Shown piece by piece: positions 35,271 to 45,446 of a stretch of 55,299 nt of DNA (the first letter of the stretch is position 1; every line of letters begins with the position of its first letter). The DNA lies in contig CALSMN010000010.1 in the NCBI GenBank assembly GCA_943787465.1, forward strand, positions 1-55,299, read 5' to 3'. Source of the DNA: an uncultured Bacteroidia bacterium (lineage in GTDB: Bacteria > Bacteroidota > Bacteroidia > NS11-12g > UBA9320). The translations under genes were made by a program, and so were the position numbers. Under the pieces are notes generated by a model, which saw nothing but the letters and a program-made list of their open reading frames with translations, was not told the DNA's origin and ran no database searches.

Positions 35271-36454
35271 ATTCCATAAAAAAATCAGATTTTTCTTTTG
35301 AATTAGCCGAAGAACAGATAGCTAAATATCCACTAGAGCAACGCGATCAATCTAAACTGCTATGTTATAAAAATGGCGTAATATCTCATCATGTTTTTAC
35401 CGATGTTGCATCTTTAATTCAGCCCAACACCTTACTGGTGATGAATAATGCTAAAGTCATACCTGCTCGATTATATTTTAAACGAAGCACAGGAGCACAG
35501 ATTGAGGTCTTACTCTTGGAACCTTTTTTGCCTAGCAGTTATGAAGAGGCATTCATAGCCAATTCATCGTGCCAATGGAAATGCATGGTTGGAAATAGTA
35601 AAAAGTGGAAAAATGAGGAATCTATTGACTTACTGAATCAACCAGAACTTTTACAAGCAAAATGGATCCATAGAGAAGAGGGTATTGTTGAATTTACGTG
35701 GTCCAATGGTCTACCCTTTACTTCTCTTTTGCATAATATTGGGGAATTACCTTTGCCACCTTATCTAAATCGCAAAACAGAACAGCAAGATAATCAAACC
35801 TATCAAACGGTATTTGCAAAAAATGAAGGTTCAGTTGCGGCACCTACTGCAGGTCTTCATTTTACACATGAAGTATTAGGAAATTTATCAGCACGTGGAG
35901 CTGTGATACAGGAAGTGACTCTACATGTGGGTGCAGGTACATTTTTGCCTGTAAAAACGGATGATGTTTTAGATCACGCCATGCATCGAGAATTTTTTGA
36001 GGTGACTCTGGATGCAATCGATGGATTGATTAATCATACGCATAGAATTGCAGTAGGAACAACTAGCTTGCGAGTATTGGAAAGTTTATATTGGATTGGG
36101 GTGCAATTAATTGAGGGGAATCATTCCTTATTTGTTCCCAAATTATATCCCTATGAGTCTGAATCAATATATCCATTTATCGATGCCTGCAAGGAGATCA
36201 AGAACTATATGTTAACCCAGAATTTATCCATCCTTTCAGCAGCTACTGAAATTCTTATTTTACCGCATTACACCATTCGAAGTATAGATGCTATGATTAC
36301 TAATTTTCACTTGCCAGAGAGCACCTTATTGATGCTAATTGCAAGCATAGTTGGGGAGGATTGGAAAATGATATATGAGACTGCCAAATGGAATCGTTAC
36401 CGATTTTTAAGTTACGGTGACAGTAGTATTTTGTTTATGCCAAAGAAGCAATAG
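35267..36454 (+). CDS. queA: S-adenosylmethionine:tRNA ribosyltransferase-isomerase
   Basis: 395 aa from GTG 35267. Makes epoxyqueuosine on tRNA after Tgt. Motifs: YPLEQRDQSKLL, VMNNAKVIPARL, GSVAAPTAGLHFT, LHVGAGTFLPVKTDD, HAMHREFFEV, VGTTSLRVLES and TNFHLPESTLLML. Somewhat longer than the ~355-aa proteobacterial enzyme. Overlaps the dprA remnant and, tail to tail, the decarboxylase by 20 bp. Confidence 0.93.
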   Translation: MNSIKKSDFSFELAEEQIAKYPLEQRDQSKLLCYKNGVISHHVFTDVASLIQPNTLLVMNNAKVIPARLYFKRSTGAQIEVLLLEPFLPSSYEEAFIANSSCQWKCMVGNSKKWKNEESIDLLNQPELLQAKWIHREEGIVEFTWSNGLPFTSLLHNIGELPLPPYLNRKTEQQDNQTYQTVFAKNEGSVAAPTAGLHFTHEVLGNLSARGAVIQEVTLHVGAGTFLPVKTDDVLDHAMHREFFEVTLDAIDGLINHTHRIAVGTTSLRVLESLYWIGVQLIEGNHSLFVPKLYPYESESIYPFIDACKEIKNYMLTQNLSILSAATEILILPHYTIRSIDAMITNFHLPESTLLMLIASIVGEDWKMIYETAKWNRYRFLSYGDSSILFMPKKQ

Positions 36455-37832
36455 TTTGGTTATTTTCTATTTTTTTGGCTCCTCTTTCTAGTACCTGAAA
36501 AAAGTGTAAAATATCTTTCTCCGTGTTATTGGCATTAATTGTTATCAATCGAACAAACTCATCTTCTTGAAATTTGCCATATCCAACCATAGCAGAGGCA
36601 TCTTCATACAACAAAGTGCATAATTTATCAGCAGGAACTGCTTTATAATTAAAACAAATAGAAATGGAATTAGGGTGGCTATATAAGGTGTAGTCGGGGT
36701 GATTGGTAATATAATTTCTAGCCACATCAGCGAGATAAAATTGGTGGTCTATTATTTTTTCGAGACCATTATTGCCTACAGATTTCCACAAAGTCCAAAA
36801 TTTAAGCGCATCGTTCCTTCGTCCACATTGAATACTTGTTTTTCCTAAATCGAATTCATCAGTATTGGTTTGGTAAAGGTAATCCGCATCATTGCTGAAC
36901 GATTTGGATAAATGTGCCTTGTCTTTTGCTATAATAATCGAACAACTTAGGGGGGTGCCTAACATTTTGTGAGCGTTAAAACTGAAACTATCACTAAGTT
37001 CAATTCCTTGGACTAGTGATCGGTATTTTTGGCTAAAAATAACACCACCACAGTATGCGCCATCAACGTGAAGCCAAAGATTATATTTTTTACATATTTC
37101 ACTGATGGCACCAATAGTGTCAAATGCCCCCAGTACGGTTGTTCCTGCCGTCGCATTAACGAAAAAAGGAAAATGGCCTGCATTCAAGTCCTTTTCAATT
37201 GTTAGTTCTAATTCCTGAGTATCCATTTGTCCCAATGGATTTGCTTTGATATAACGAACTTGTTTTCGGCCTATGCCAGCAAAAGCAGCATTTTTAGGGA
37301 TAGAATAATGCGATTCGGCTGAGGTATATACGATCATTTTGGTGGTTACACCCTCATTTCGAGTAGAATCAATAGCAGCATCTCTAGCCATGACTAACCC
37401 CATGAAATTACACATACTTCCACCTGGAGCTATCGTTCCATCGGCAGTTTCTGGATAATTAATAAGTTGGATCACTTTGTGCATGATCGCTTTTTCAATT
37501 CCAGCTTGAGGGCCTGCTACTTTGTAGGTATACATACTATTATTGAGCATGACAGCCAATAAATCACCCACAACGGCTTTGGGTTGTCTGCCTCCAAACA
37601 GTTGATTAAAAAATAATTTAGAAGCAGTTTTTGGAGTAAAATCCATCAATTGTTCGATGAGCCTTTGCCAGGCATCATCGTCCATGCCCTGATCTTTAAA
37701 ATTCAGATCAAGATGATCAATTACATGATCTGTTGAGATGGGTTTTACAACGGGATTTTTTTCTTCATCGATTAATAATTTTTCGACAATTTGATTGAAA
37801 AAATGAAGTTCTTTTTGCATAAATGAGTTCAA
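36435..37832 (-). CDS. PLP-dependent decarboxylase of the GAD/CSAD group, probable cysteine sulfinate decarboxylase
   Basis: 465 aa. Group II PLP decarboxylase: AGTTVLGAFD, LWLHVDGAYCGG, PLP lysine in SFSFNAHKMLGTPLSCS, and the GAD/CSAD-type TSIQCGRRNDALKFWTLWKS. These stretches resemble animal CSAD and GAD more than the bacterial GadB type. Glutamate, aspartate or cysteine sulfinate are all possible, but the divergent neighbour is a cysteine dioxygenase, whose product is cysteine sulfinate; together they would make hypotaurine. The family is sure; the substrate is inferred from context. Confidence 0.8.
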   Translation of the reverse strand: MNSFMQKELHFFNQIVEKLLIDEEKNPVVKPISTDHVIDHLDLNFKDQGMDDDAWQRLIEQLMDFTPKTASKLFFNQLFGGRQPKAVVGDLLAVMLNNSMYTYKVAGPQAGIEKAIMHKVIQLINYPETADGTIAPGGSMCNFMGLVMARDAAIDSTRNEGVTTKMIVYTSAESHYSIPKNAAFAGIGRKQVRYIKANPLGQMDTQELELTIEKDLNAGHFPFFVNATAGTTVLGAFDTIGAISEICKKYNLWLHVDGAYCGGVIFSQKYRSLVQGIELSDSFSFNAHKMLGTPLSCSIIIAKDKAHLSKSFSNDADYLYQTNTDEFDLGKTSIQCGRRNDALKFWTLWKSVGNNGLEKIIDHQFYLADVARNYITNHPDYTLYSHPNSISICFNYKAVPADKLCTLLYEDASAMVGYGKFQEDEFVRLITINANNTEKDILHFFQVLERGAKKIENNQTIASLA

Positions 37833-37899
37833 TATTTACTCGAATAAATGGCATAACCAAGTTTTTCCGATTTTTAATAAAAAATGCTCAAAAAATGCA

Positions 37900-37917
37900 A
37901 AAAAAGGTACCTTTTTT
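37900..37917. repeat. Perfect palindrome in the decarboxylase/dioxygenase divergent region
   Basis: AAAAAAGGTACCTTTTTT, perfectly self-complementary, centred 23 bp upstream of the cysteine dioxygenase -7 box. Position suits an operator or a bent-DNA element controlling one or both divergent genes. It is upstream of both, so it is not their terminator. Confidence 0.5.
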
Positions 37918-37931
37918 GGCTAAAAATTACT

Positions 37932-37939
37932 TAATTTTG
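37932..37939 (+). promoter_or_regulatory. -7 element TAATTTTG for cysteine dioxygenase
   Basis: Exact TAnnTTTG match, 10 nt before ATG 37950. Confidence 0.55.
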
Positions 37940-37949
37940 ATCAATTTAT

Positions 37950-38489
37950 ATGATTTTAGATAAAAGTGCTATAGGAAAAATATCGAGTTTAGCACATCTA
38001 ATTTCTGCATTAAAGTACGGCTATTATCATGAGGTGCTTACCCAATCAGACGACTTAGTTTTATCGGTTGAAGAATTACAACCGTATATCAGTTGGAACG
38101 ATAAACGTTACACCCGGAATTGTATTGCAAGAGATGATTATTTCGAATTGATTTTATTGTGTTGGGAAAAAGGCCAAAGGACGCCCATTCATAATCATGA
38201 TGAACAAGAATGTTGGGTAAAAGTCATACAAGGTGACTTTGCAGAATCATTCTATGCGTATGAACCTTTAACTGATTCTATGAAATATGTAGGCACAGAT
38301 ATAGTTGCTCAGCATGAGGTGACATCCATTGAAGATCAAGCCCTTTATCATAGTTTAGAGAATATCAATAGGGGGCGAAGTATGAGTCTCCATTTGTATA
38401 TGAAGCCAATTGCAGAATGTTTGGTTTATAATAAGTCTAATCAAAAATTAGAATTAAGATCACTCCAGTACGATACCTGTCATTCATAG
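37950..38489 (+). CDS. cdo: Cysteine dioxygenase type I
   Basis: 179 aa cupin. Oxidises cysteine to cysteine sulfinate with O2 at a 3-His Fe site: HNH in TPIHNHDEQECW and the third His in ALYHSLEN. The Cys five residues after the second His lines up with mammalian Cys93, and SLHLY carries the Tyr157 equivalent, so the Cys-Tyr cross-linked cofactor could form; as I recall, most bacterial enzymes have Gly at the Cys position. Divergent from the CSAD-like decarboxylase across 117 bp. Confidence 0.9.
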   Translation: MILDKSAIGKISSLAHLISALKYGYYHEVLTQSDDLVLSVEELQPYISWNDKRYTRNCIARDDYFELILLCWEKGQRTPIHNHDEQECWVKVIQGDFAESFYAYEPLTDSMKYVGTDIVAQHEVTSIEDQALYHSLENINRGRSMSLHLYMKPIAECLVYNKSNQKLELRSLQYDTCHS

Positions 38490-40539: not shown

Positions 40540-43500
40540 ATGTATCTTAGGCGTGTTTTTTTTGCAATTCAGTTTCTATTTTCTGTTAGTTTTCTTTTTG
40601 CCCAACGTACTAACCCTACAAAGGATGTAGATGGAGTAACCGAGAGCTGGTATGCACATATTCAAGAAAATCTCCTCAAACAAGAATATAATTTACATCT
40701 CAAAAAAGACAAACACTATCGAGCTTTCAATCGCTCCAATAATATCATCGGTCAATTAAAGCCTGGTGTGATGAGCTTAACCCCCAATCTTGACAATGGG
40801 CAAACCACAGTTTCTTGGCAAGCAGAACTACAAACTGCATCTATTGTCTTTGATGGTGATGTGGTATACATTCCAACACAAACAGCACTGATTACATCCG
40901 ATGAAAACACTGTAGAATTTCATCATGATATATTCACAGAGCAATACATCAACAATGAGCAAGGTCTTCGACAAAACTTCATCATTCATGAAGGACCCGA
41001 CAGTGATGAGATACAAATTAATTTAAATATAAATGGTTTAAAGGTGGTAAAACGACATGACACCGAACTTGCTTTTTATGAGGAAACTCGCCGAAATGGA
41101 ATTCAAATCCATACTTTATACAAAGACCTTAAATCGTGGGATGCAAATGGAATACCCCTTGCAAGTCATTTTGAGGTAATGGGTAATCAAGTATCCATAG
41201 TGGTCAATCCAAAAAACGCAACTTATCCCATAACCATTGATCCGATTTCCACAACTGTTAGTAGTACTCTTGAGGAAAACAAAGCAAGTGCTTTATATGG
41301 TTATTCCGTTTCATCAGCAGGCGATGTAAATGGGGATGGATATGACGACGTTATTGTTGGGGCACCATACTATGACAATGGGCAAAATAAAGGAGCAGCA
41401 TTCGTGTATTTTGGTTCTAAAAATGGAATTTCAACTACATCTCGAATATTGTTAAAGATTTCAAATAATGGACTCTTTGGCTATTCTGTTTCATCAGCAG
41501 GCGATGTAAATGGTGATGGATATGATGACATAATTGTTGGGGCTAGTGAATTTGAAAATGGACAAACAAGGGAGGGTGCAGCATTTATATTTCATGGAAC
41601 ATCTTCAGGAATTTCAACAACTCCATCTATTCAGTTAGAAATTAATCAAGCTTATGCATTGACCGGTTCGTCAGTGAGTAATGCTGGTGATGTCAATGGT
41701 GATGGATATGATGATGTAGTTATTGGAGCACCCTTTTACAATATAAGTTCCCCATATTATGAGGGCGCAACCGCTGTATTTTTGGGCTCGAGTAACGGTA
41801 TCTTAAGTTCAAGTTTGCAACTTTTAAAAGGTAATCAGTCGTATGCATATTTTGGAACCTCAGTATCCACTGCAGGAGATATTAATTCTGATGGGTATGA
41901 TGATTTGATAGTGGGAGCTCCGAGCTATGACAATGGGCAAACTAACGAAGGAGTTGCTTTTGTTTTTTATGGTACAAAAAACGGAATTTCAGCTAATTCA
42001 AAATCACAGTTAGAAATTAATAAATCTACTTCTTTCTTTGGATGTTCAGTTTCTTCAGCAGGAGATGTAAATGGTGACAGTTTTGATGATGTGATAATCG
42101 GAGCAGATTATTACGAAAATGGACAAACTCAAGAGGGCGCTATTTTTCTTTTTCATGGAAGTGGTAGTGGTATTAATTTAAGTCCTTCTATTAAAATTGA
42201 ATCAAATGGAAATTATATAAATTACGGTAGATATGTATCAAATGTAAAAGATTTGAATAATGATGGATATGATGAAATTCTAACAACAGGGAGAAATTCA
42301 AATATTGATATTTTTTATGGTTCAAAATCAGGGATAACAACCTCTAATTATGAGTCATTGAAATTTAATTTTAACTCATATGGATTAAATGGTGAAAGAC
42401 CCGTTTCAAGTGCTGGAGATGTTAATAATGATGGCTTAAATGATATTGTTGTAGGTCACTCTGAGGGAAGTAACGGTCAAAGTAGAGAGGGGATGGCTTT
42501 CATGTTTTATGGAGTTAAAGATACATCTTGTACCACCACGTCCTCCACAGACACCATCACCTCCTGCGGACCTTACACGTGGACCGATGGAAAAACATAT
42601 ACCACCAGCAACAATACAGCAAAAGATACTTTTATAAATGCAGCAGGTTGTGATAGTATGGTTTCGTTGAATCTCACTATTCTACAACTTCCAACCATTA
42701 CTGGTAGCAGTTCAGTTTGTATCAGTGATACAATTATACTAACGGCTACATCTCCTATCGGAACAGTTGATATTTTTCCTCCTTGGGTATCGAGCAATGT
42801 AAATGTCGCAACTGTTGTGGATGGAGTCGTTAAAGGTATCTCAGAAGGGTCAACTGTACTTACTTTTTACGCTCCCAATGGCTGCTCTGTCTCTCAGATT
42901 ATCACCGTTTTACCCAGCTCATATGATACCCTTACATTCTTAGAGTGCGACAGCGTCATTTCTCCAACGGGAAAAGTGTACACCAGCACTGGAAGCTACA
43001 ACGACACCCTTGTAAATAGCTTTGGATGTGATAGTGTTATTACTTCACTGGTAACCATTGGAGATACGATATCCCCAACTGCACTCACTCAAAACCTTAC
43101 CTTATACTTAAATCAATTGGGACAAGTGTCTACTTCTTCGTCAGATGTAAACAATGGCTCATCGGATAACTGTGGAATAACATTCTACAGACTTTCAGAT
43201 TCCATTTTCGATTGTACGGATTTAGGTACCAATACCATTTATTTAATCGTCACCGACAGATACGGTAATATCGACTCTGCCAGTGCAGTAGTAACGGTGC
43301 AAGATACGATTAAGCCAACGGTGCTTACTCAGAACGTTACCGTTAGCCTAGATGCCAGTGGAGCAGGTTCAGTAACCGTTGCAGACATCGACAACGGATC
43401 CACCGACAACTGCTCGATTGCAAGTAGAACCTTGAGTAAAACAAGCTTTGACTGCTCAGAGGTCGGAGCCAATACGATTTACCTTATTCGTCACCGATGT

Positions 43501-45446
43501 AAACGGCAACATCGACTCTGCCAGTGCAGTAGTTACCGTACAAGATACGATCAAGCCAACGGTACTCACTCAGAACGTTACCGTTAGCTCTAGATGCCAG
43601 TGGAGCAGGTTCAGTAACCGTAGCGGATATCGATAATGGATCAACCGATAACTGCTCGATAGCAAGTAGAACGTTGAGTAAAACAAGCTTTGACTGTAGT
43701 AATGTCGGAGCCAATACGATTTACCTAATCGTCACCGATGTAAATGGTAACATCGACTCTGCTAGTGCAGTGGTTACCGTACAAGACATCATCAAGCCAA
43801 CCGTACTCACTCAAAACGTTACCGTTAGCTTAGATGCTAGTGGAGCAGGTTCAGTAACCGTAGCTGACATCGATAATGGATCAACCGACAACTGCTCGAT
43901 TGCAAGTAGAACGTTGAGTAAATCAAGCTTTGACTGTAGTAATGTCGGAGCCAATACGATTTACCTAATCGTCACCGATGTAAATGGTAACATCGACTCT
44001 GCTAGTGCAGTAGTTACCGTACAAGACACGATCAAGCCAACCGTACTCACTCAAAACGTTACCGTTAGCTTAGATGCCAGTGGAGCAGGTTCAGTAACCG
44101 TAGCGGACATCGATAACGGATCAACCGACAACTGCTCGATTGCAAGTAGAACCTTGAGTAAATCAAGCTTTGATTGTAGTAATGTCGGAGCCAATACGAT
44201 TTACCTAATCGTCACCGATGTAAACGGTAACATCGACTCTGCCAGTGCAGTGGTTACCGTACAAGATACGATCAAGCCCACCGTACTCACTCAGAACGTT
44301 ACGGTTAGCCTTGATGCCAGTGGAGCAGGTTCAGTAACCGTAGCGGACATCGATAACGGATCAACCGACAACTGCTCGATTGCAAGTAGAACGTTGAGTA
44401 AATCAAGCTTCGACTGCTCAGTAGTGTCGGAGCCAATACGATTTACCTTATTGTCACCGATGTAAACGGCAACATCGACTCAGCCAGTGCAGTGGTTACC
44501 GTACAAGACACATCAAGCCCACGGTAGTTACTACCCCAAGTGATATAGCACTTGGGATATTGTGATGCAACCTACACGTATGCAATACCAACGGGTGATG
44601 ATAACTGTGGAGTAACCGTTACTCAAATTGCAGGACTACCACCCGGATCTACCTTCCCAGTAGGATTAACCGTAAATACCTTTGAGATTAGTGACCCATC
44701 TGGTAATACAGTAACTACAAGTTTCACGGTAGATATCCGAGCAAGGTACATGCCGTTTGCTATCTCAGATACATCCATTTGTAACAACAACAATAAGATT
44801 GATTTATCCAAAGGGCTTTGATAACATCATCTTTATCGGAAGTGGAGTAGAAGCCAATGAAAAGTTCTTTAATCCCAATTCTTTAGAGCCAGGGAGTTAC
44901 ACAATTACCGCAGAGTTTACCGATAGCATGGGATGTGTATCAATGGATACATTAGAAGTAACGCTAAGAATAATACCCATAGTACCTGTCATAGAACGAG
45001 TGGCATCCGATCAGATTGTAACAGCAGACACCTATAGTTCATACCAATGGTACAGAAATGGGGAGGAGTTGAATGGTAAGAATGGATATCATTTGCGTGT
45101 TCATGAATTAGGGTTATATTCAGTTTTAGTAGGGAATACCGAAAATTGTTTTGTTGGAAGTGAGGGTTATGGATTTGGTATTCCAGTTAATGAAGAGAAC
45201 GTCACCAATCAAGAAAATGTAAAAGTATATCCCAATCCGACCGCAGGTTTTTTATTCGTGGAGATGAGTGATGGTGACACCCTACATACGTTAAGTTTAA
45301 CTAATAATTTGGGAGACGTTGTCCTTTCAAAGGAGACCAATACGGCGATAGCGAGAATTGATATGAATAGTTTATTACCAGGGACTTATTATTTGCAGGT
45401 TAATAGTTTTTCTACAAATGTTTCCGTTAAGATAGTAAAACTATAG
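40540..45446 (+). pseudogene. Giant secreted FG-GAP / tandem-repeat protein with T9SS tail, frame broken six times
   Basis: If the frames are joined, about 1630 aa: signal peptide (to LFAQ), an N-terminal beta domain (about 25-235), six to seven FG-GAP integrin-like repeats (GYSVSSAGDVNGDGYDDVIVGAP type, about 250-660), a TDTITSCGPYTWTDGKTY domain, an Ig-like domain, one diverged and five near-identical 80-aa repeats, a HYR-like unit (YCDATYTYAIPTGDDNCG), a linker and a T9SS type A domain (VYPNPTAG to KIVKL). Apparent frameshifts lie near 43488 (+1), 43586 (+1), 44425 (+2), 44511 (-1), 44545 (+1) and 44814 (+1). The first 1000 codons are clean. Likely a surface adhesin; whether it is truly broken depends on sequence quality in the repeats. 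Confidence 0.75.
43315..44517 (+). repeat. Five near-identical 240-bp tandem repeats
   Basis: Units begin at 43315, 43556, 43797, 44037 and 44277 and encode an 80-aa module starting PTVLTQNVTVSLDASG with two cysteines (DNCS, FDCS). A sixth, diverged copy precedes them from about 43063. Unit lengths of 241, 241, 240, 240 and 241 come from the indels described for the gene. Confidence 0.92.

Follow-up and report, generated by a model that had tools for sequence, protein, structure and literature searches.

Among the compounds dissolved in seawater, taurine is an important one, and its production is generally credited to animals and algae. A prokaryotic taurine pathway consisting of cysteine dioxygenase (CDO) and cysteine sulfinate decarboxylase (CSAD) was reportedly described in 2013 by Agnello et al. 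in Synechococcus sp. PCC 7335. Later papers cite CDO–CSAD taurine synthesis, published in 2013, for marine cyanobacteria and marine flavobacteria (PMC12585060, PMC8153620), and the prokaryotic pathway of Agnello et al. is also cited in PMC10356861. In marine archaea, CDO has been named as a taurine-synthesis gene (PMC10703444).

Here we analyzed a 55,299-nucleotide stretch of DNA (the window) from an uncultured Bacteroidia bacterium. Compared through its published description, the prokaryotic pathway shares with the window a CDO gene beside a CSAD gene with an F/S/Y substrate motif, and it occurs in marine bacteria that include flavobacteria; the window pair differs in being divergent and in that no CDO-linked symporter is present in its genome. 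Mammalian CDO1 and CSAD are similar in all ten CDO active-site residues, including Cys93 and Tyr157, and in the F/S/Y decarboxylase motif, but identity is only about 26% for CDO and 30% for the decarboxylase (structural alignment), the proteins fall in separate clades, and no FMO was found in the window genome. Some marine bacteria are already known to have the pathway, of which the window pair is a well-supported new example, not a new type of system. Being conserved in uncultured, probably marine Bacteroidota, the pair points to further likely producers among bacteria.

A divergent gene pair

The sequence-only reading had proposed a divergent CDO/decarboxylase pair at 36435-38489, and both open reading frames and their Pfam matches bear this out. 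On the minus strand, 36435..37832 (465 aa) encodes a CSAD/GAD-family PLP decarboxylase, predicted to act on cysteine sulfinate and identified by Pfam Pyridoxal_deC and PDB matches; on the plus strand, 37950..38489 (179 aa) encodes an Arg-type CDO, identified by Pfam CDO_I and an AlphaFold model. The genes are transcribed in opposite directions, away from each other, and lie on contig C10; the genome, 1.97 Mb and 99.5% complete, has no other member of either family (the decarboxylase is the single PF00282 gene). The probable start codon of the decarboxylase is the ATG at 37820, not the TTG at 37832, since that methionine is conserved in relatives; the two starts are then separated by 129 bp. 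This intervening A+T-rich sequence (37821..37949) presumably holds the promoters of both genes, and a promoter scan scored no sigma-70-type consensus in it. In named records, the nearest copies of the CDO come from Flavobacteriales and other Bacteroidota metagenome assemblies, whose sample names point to a probably marine origin of the host. Elsewhere in the window, the frame of an FG-GAP protein (40540-44465) is apparently lost within a repeat near 43500, and an open reading frame belonging to that repeat family picks up at 43674; the frameshift is either real or assembly-derived.

The dioxygenase keeps the mammalian active site

The CDO matches Pfam CDO_I with an E-value of 3.5e-19 and 69.4 bits, against a curated cut-off of 23. 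All ten active-site residues checked against human CDO (Y58, R60, H86, H88, C93, H140, S153, H155, Y157 and C164) are kept in the alignment, as Y54, R56, H81, H83, C88, H134, S146, H148, Y150 and C157. The set includes the three-His iron site (H81, H83 and H134, 38190..38351, plus strand), the Ser-His-Tyr network and the equivalents of Tyr58 and Arg60, and it is retained by all complete relatives, except that some have Thr for Ser153. On these residues, the protein is assigned as an Arg-type CDO and not a 3-mercaptopropionate dioxygenase. Its AlphaFold model (pLDDT 90) finds mammalian CDO as the best fold match (TM 0.84-0.87), with lower values (TM 0.67-0.75) for bacterial thiol dioxygenases. 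The enzyme would oxidize L-cysteine to cysteine sulfinate with Fe(II) and O2, with Arg56 and Tyr54 holding the substrate carboxylate.

As the sequence-only reading had noticed, the CDO also keeps the cysteine and tyrosine of the mammalian cross-linked cofactor: Cys88 (38211..38213, plus strand) aligns with human Cys93 and Tyr150 (38397..38399, plus strand) with human Tyr157, and both are present in every complete Bacteroidota relative checked. A thioether cross-link between Cys88 and Tyr150 is thus possible. The same reading gave position 93 as mostly Gly in bacteria, which is true in part. The Arg-type CDO of Bacillus subtilis (YubC, 4qm8/4qm9) is similar in fold, three-His site, Arg and Tyr, but it is 23% identical to the window CDO and has Gly at the human Cys93 position, as does a Priestia CDO; a Vibrio CDO has Cys in the alignment. 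A review states that many, not all, bacterial CDOs are without Cys93 (PMC4019311), whereas another paper flatly describes the Tyr used by bacterial forms as unmodified (PMC8050391). The Vibrio gene (L102:3818-4444) lies on a 1.85-Mb replicon, with no decarboxylase recognized among the flanking genes scanned. With their intact Cys-Tyr pair, bacterial CDOs of this kind could be used to ask why the cofactor evolved.

Substrate preference of the decarboxylase

The partner protein exceeds the threshold for Pfam Pyridoxal_deC (E 4.1e-79) and is a group II PLP decarboxylase whose catalytic, PLP-binding Lys289 (NAHK; 36966..36968, minus strand) is invariant in the alignment. Its nearest solved structures are GADL1 and CSAD (~1e-76), followed by GAD (~1e-70) and by bacterial decarboxylases at 1e-53 or weaker, in agreement with its earlier description as CSAD/GAD-type. 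The structural model matches each of GAD, CSAD and GADL1 and offers no choice among them. In the substrate motif, F79, S99 and Y101 (F79-x19-S99-x-Y101; 37530..37598, minus strand) exactly match Faa19SaaY, the motif of human CSAD that is tied to cysteine sulfinate specificity (PMC4754659), and three positions have been reported to set CSAD versus GAD selectivity (PMC8153620). In printed alignments, these positions read S/N/F in GAD1 and Y/S/Y in GADL1. All orthologues that cover the motif site have F/S/Y or Y/S/Y, the first position being Tyr in three of them (G007, G014 and G175); among distant Bacteroidota decarboxylases covering all three positions, F/S/Y or Y/S/Y occurs in L080 only. The motif would select cysteine sulfinate over glutamate, and the enzyme would remove CO2 from cysteine sulfinate to give hypotaurine, the taurine precursor.

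An alternative is that the decarboxylase acts mainly on aspartate, yielding beta-alanine, or on glutamate, yielding GABA, like GADL1, insect aspartate decarboxylase (ADC) or GAD, and that its proximity to CDO is incidental or its substrates mixed. GADL1 and insect ADC belong to the same PLP decarboxylase family as the window protein, GADL1 scores as close to it as CSAD does, and GADL1 prefers aspartate (PMC5947694); the Tyr of the three orthologues is also that of GADL1, and two genomes carry the decarboxylase gene without CDO. However, the window protein itself has Phe at the first motif position, where GADL1 has Tyr, and its F/S/Y motif is intact, whereas GAD has S/N/F. With PanD present in the genome, beta-alanine does not depend on the decarboxylase and the need for aspartate decarboxylation is lower. 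The protein also falls far short of the NCBIfam cut-offs set for PanP and for diaminobutyrate decarboxylase. Given these observations and the perfect co-occurrence and adjacency with CDO described below, we consider a primary role on aspartate or glutamate unlikely. The more specific idea that the protein replaces PanD as a PanP-type aspartate decarboxylase was rejected, both because PanD is present and because the match to the PanP equivalog reaches 127 bits against a cut-off of 606.

Co-occurrence and linkage of the two genes

Orthologues of CDO and of the decarboxylase were found in the same 22 of 58 related genomes, although these genomes are mutually related and chance statistics would overstate the co-occurrence. 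Leaving out weak, unrelated matches in G024 and G022, neither orthologue was found singly in any of the 58. In 19 of the 22 genomes, the genes lie next to each other, in either of two arrangements, divergent or co-directional (operon), the latter with about 30-45 bp between matched ends. The neighbors of the window pair (QueA, HAD and DUF3050 genes) persist in the closest relatives only, and elsewhere the flanks are unrelated. The pair is not a chance neighborhood. More broadly, CDOs of the window clade occur in 6 of 392 Bacteroidota genomes, the window genome included, and the decarboxylase orthologue adjoins in all six; no close CDO or CSAD was found in the plasmid collection. In one relative (G053; L023, L047, L051), several stops interrupt the decarboxylase, through decay or sequencing error, next to a CDO that looks intact.

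Two class-level relatives among the 392 genomes, G283 and G175, carry a decarboxylase orthologue without any CDO, and the enzyme can thus serve another purpose at least there. The lone gene (L076 and L079, respectively) has a T9SS plug-like gene and an ApaG-domain gene as neighbors in both genomes.

Linkage also bears on what the dioxygenase is for. Transamination can convert cysteine sulfinate to sulfinylpyruvate, which yields pyruvate and sulfite (PMC4019311), and CDO might accordingly serve cysteine breakdown or detoxification by this route, with hypotaurine a minor product. However, whichever of the two gene arrangements is present, CDO is constantly partnered by a decarboxylase that carries the sulfinate motif, and we regard a mainly catabolic role as very improbable. 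Instead, the active-site residues and the substrate motif, together with the perfect co-occurrence and the conserved adjacency of the genes, make it very likely that CDO and the decarboxylase form a two-step route from cysteine through cysteine sulfinate to hypotaurine. The compact hypotaurine pathway proposed in the sequence-only reading is strongly supported on the same grounds, all of them drawn from sequence comparison.

Fate of hypotaurine

What becomes of the predicted product may be judged from the rest of the gene content. No FMO-like (PF00743) match, and hence no FMO-type hypotaurine oxidase, was found in the genome, so taurine itself may not come from a known enzyme. TauD is absent from the genome, and Xsc gave only weak matches below the cut-off, a background seen in all control genomes; no taurine breakdown is therefore evident, and this possibility was rejected. 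Together, the lack of an FMO-type oxidase, of TauD and of an Xsc match above the cut-off fits storage better than breakdown. Hypotaurine would be made and then kept or exported, or oxidized by something unrecognized. A role in seawater as a compatible solute or antioxidant is plausible for hypotaurine, or for taurine formed from it by an unrecognized enzyme or by chemical oxidants.

Bacterial clades outside the mammalian proteins

Both genes had been described as eukaryote-like, which is true of their active-site residues and of the CDO model, which fits mammalian CDO best, but not of their placement in trees. The eukaryote references in these trees were mammalian only, so they bear on mammalian donors and say little of protist or algal ones; each reference was represented by the portion printed in the HMMER alignments instead of its full length. 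A tree built from 40 decarboxylases places the window-type proteins in a single bacterial clade (100/100) on a long branch, outside the animal GAD/CSAD/GADL1 clade (100/99); the window protein thus lies outside all three animal types and does not group with CSAD as opposed to GAD or GADL1. We predict the same function for it as for animal CSAD and do not claim orthology. Resolution in the CDO tree is weak, and the tree was consulted only on whether the clade nests with mammals, with row L070 disregarded because of a wrong frame; the window clade is apart from the mammalian sequences (99/94), with about 26% identity to human CDO.

Recent acquisition of both genes from a eukaryote might have been suspected from the Cys-Tyr pair of the CDO and from the fact that the closest solved relatives of both proteins are mammalian. 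The separate clades, the long decarboxylase branch, the low CDO identity and the wide spread of the pair in the genus and family make it quite improbable. A recent animal-to-bacterium transfer was rejected, as both proteins fall in bacterial clades outside the mammalian ones. The phylogeny that the sequence-only reading proposed as a check thus places both proteins in Bacteroidota clades and, against mammalian references, does not bear out a eukaryotic origin.

A symporter linked to the pair

Fifteen of the 22 genomes with the pair also encode a sodium:solute symporter that is a relative of PutP but scores under the PutP equivalog cut-off; the 36 genomes without the pair all lack it. In 10 of the 15, it adjoins the pair. 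The window genome lacks this symporter, and the nearest of its own symporters are about 22% identical to it. It is a reasonable guess that the linked protein is a (hypo)taurine carrier, for which it is a concrete candidate; alternatively, it may carry another osmolyte. A wider reading, which we offer tentatively and think somewhat doubtful as a whole, is that Bacteroidota possess a module that both makes and imports (hypo)taurine by means of CDO, CSAD and a PutP-like sodium symporter dedicated to it, that its CDO forms the Cys-Tyr cofactor usually called eukaryotic, and that the window lineage kept the synthesis, without the transporter or a known oxidase, and stores hypotaurine. The linked symporter is represented by L060:3086-4630 (minus strand), which is confined among the relatives to pair genomes and has orthologues in G002, G005, G006, G009, G013, G016, G020, G028, G031 and G033. 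In six genomes of the same genus, the symporter gene lies directly downstream of the decarboxylase, with 0-45 bp between matched ends; in four other relatives, it is divergent beside CDO, and it is also found in operon-type named loci.
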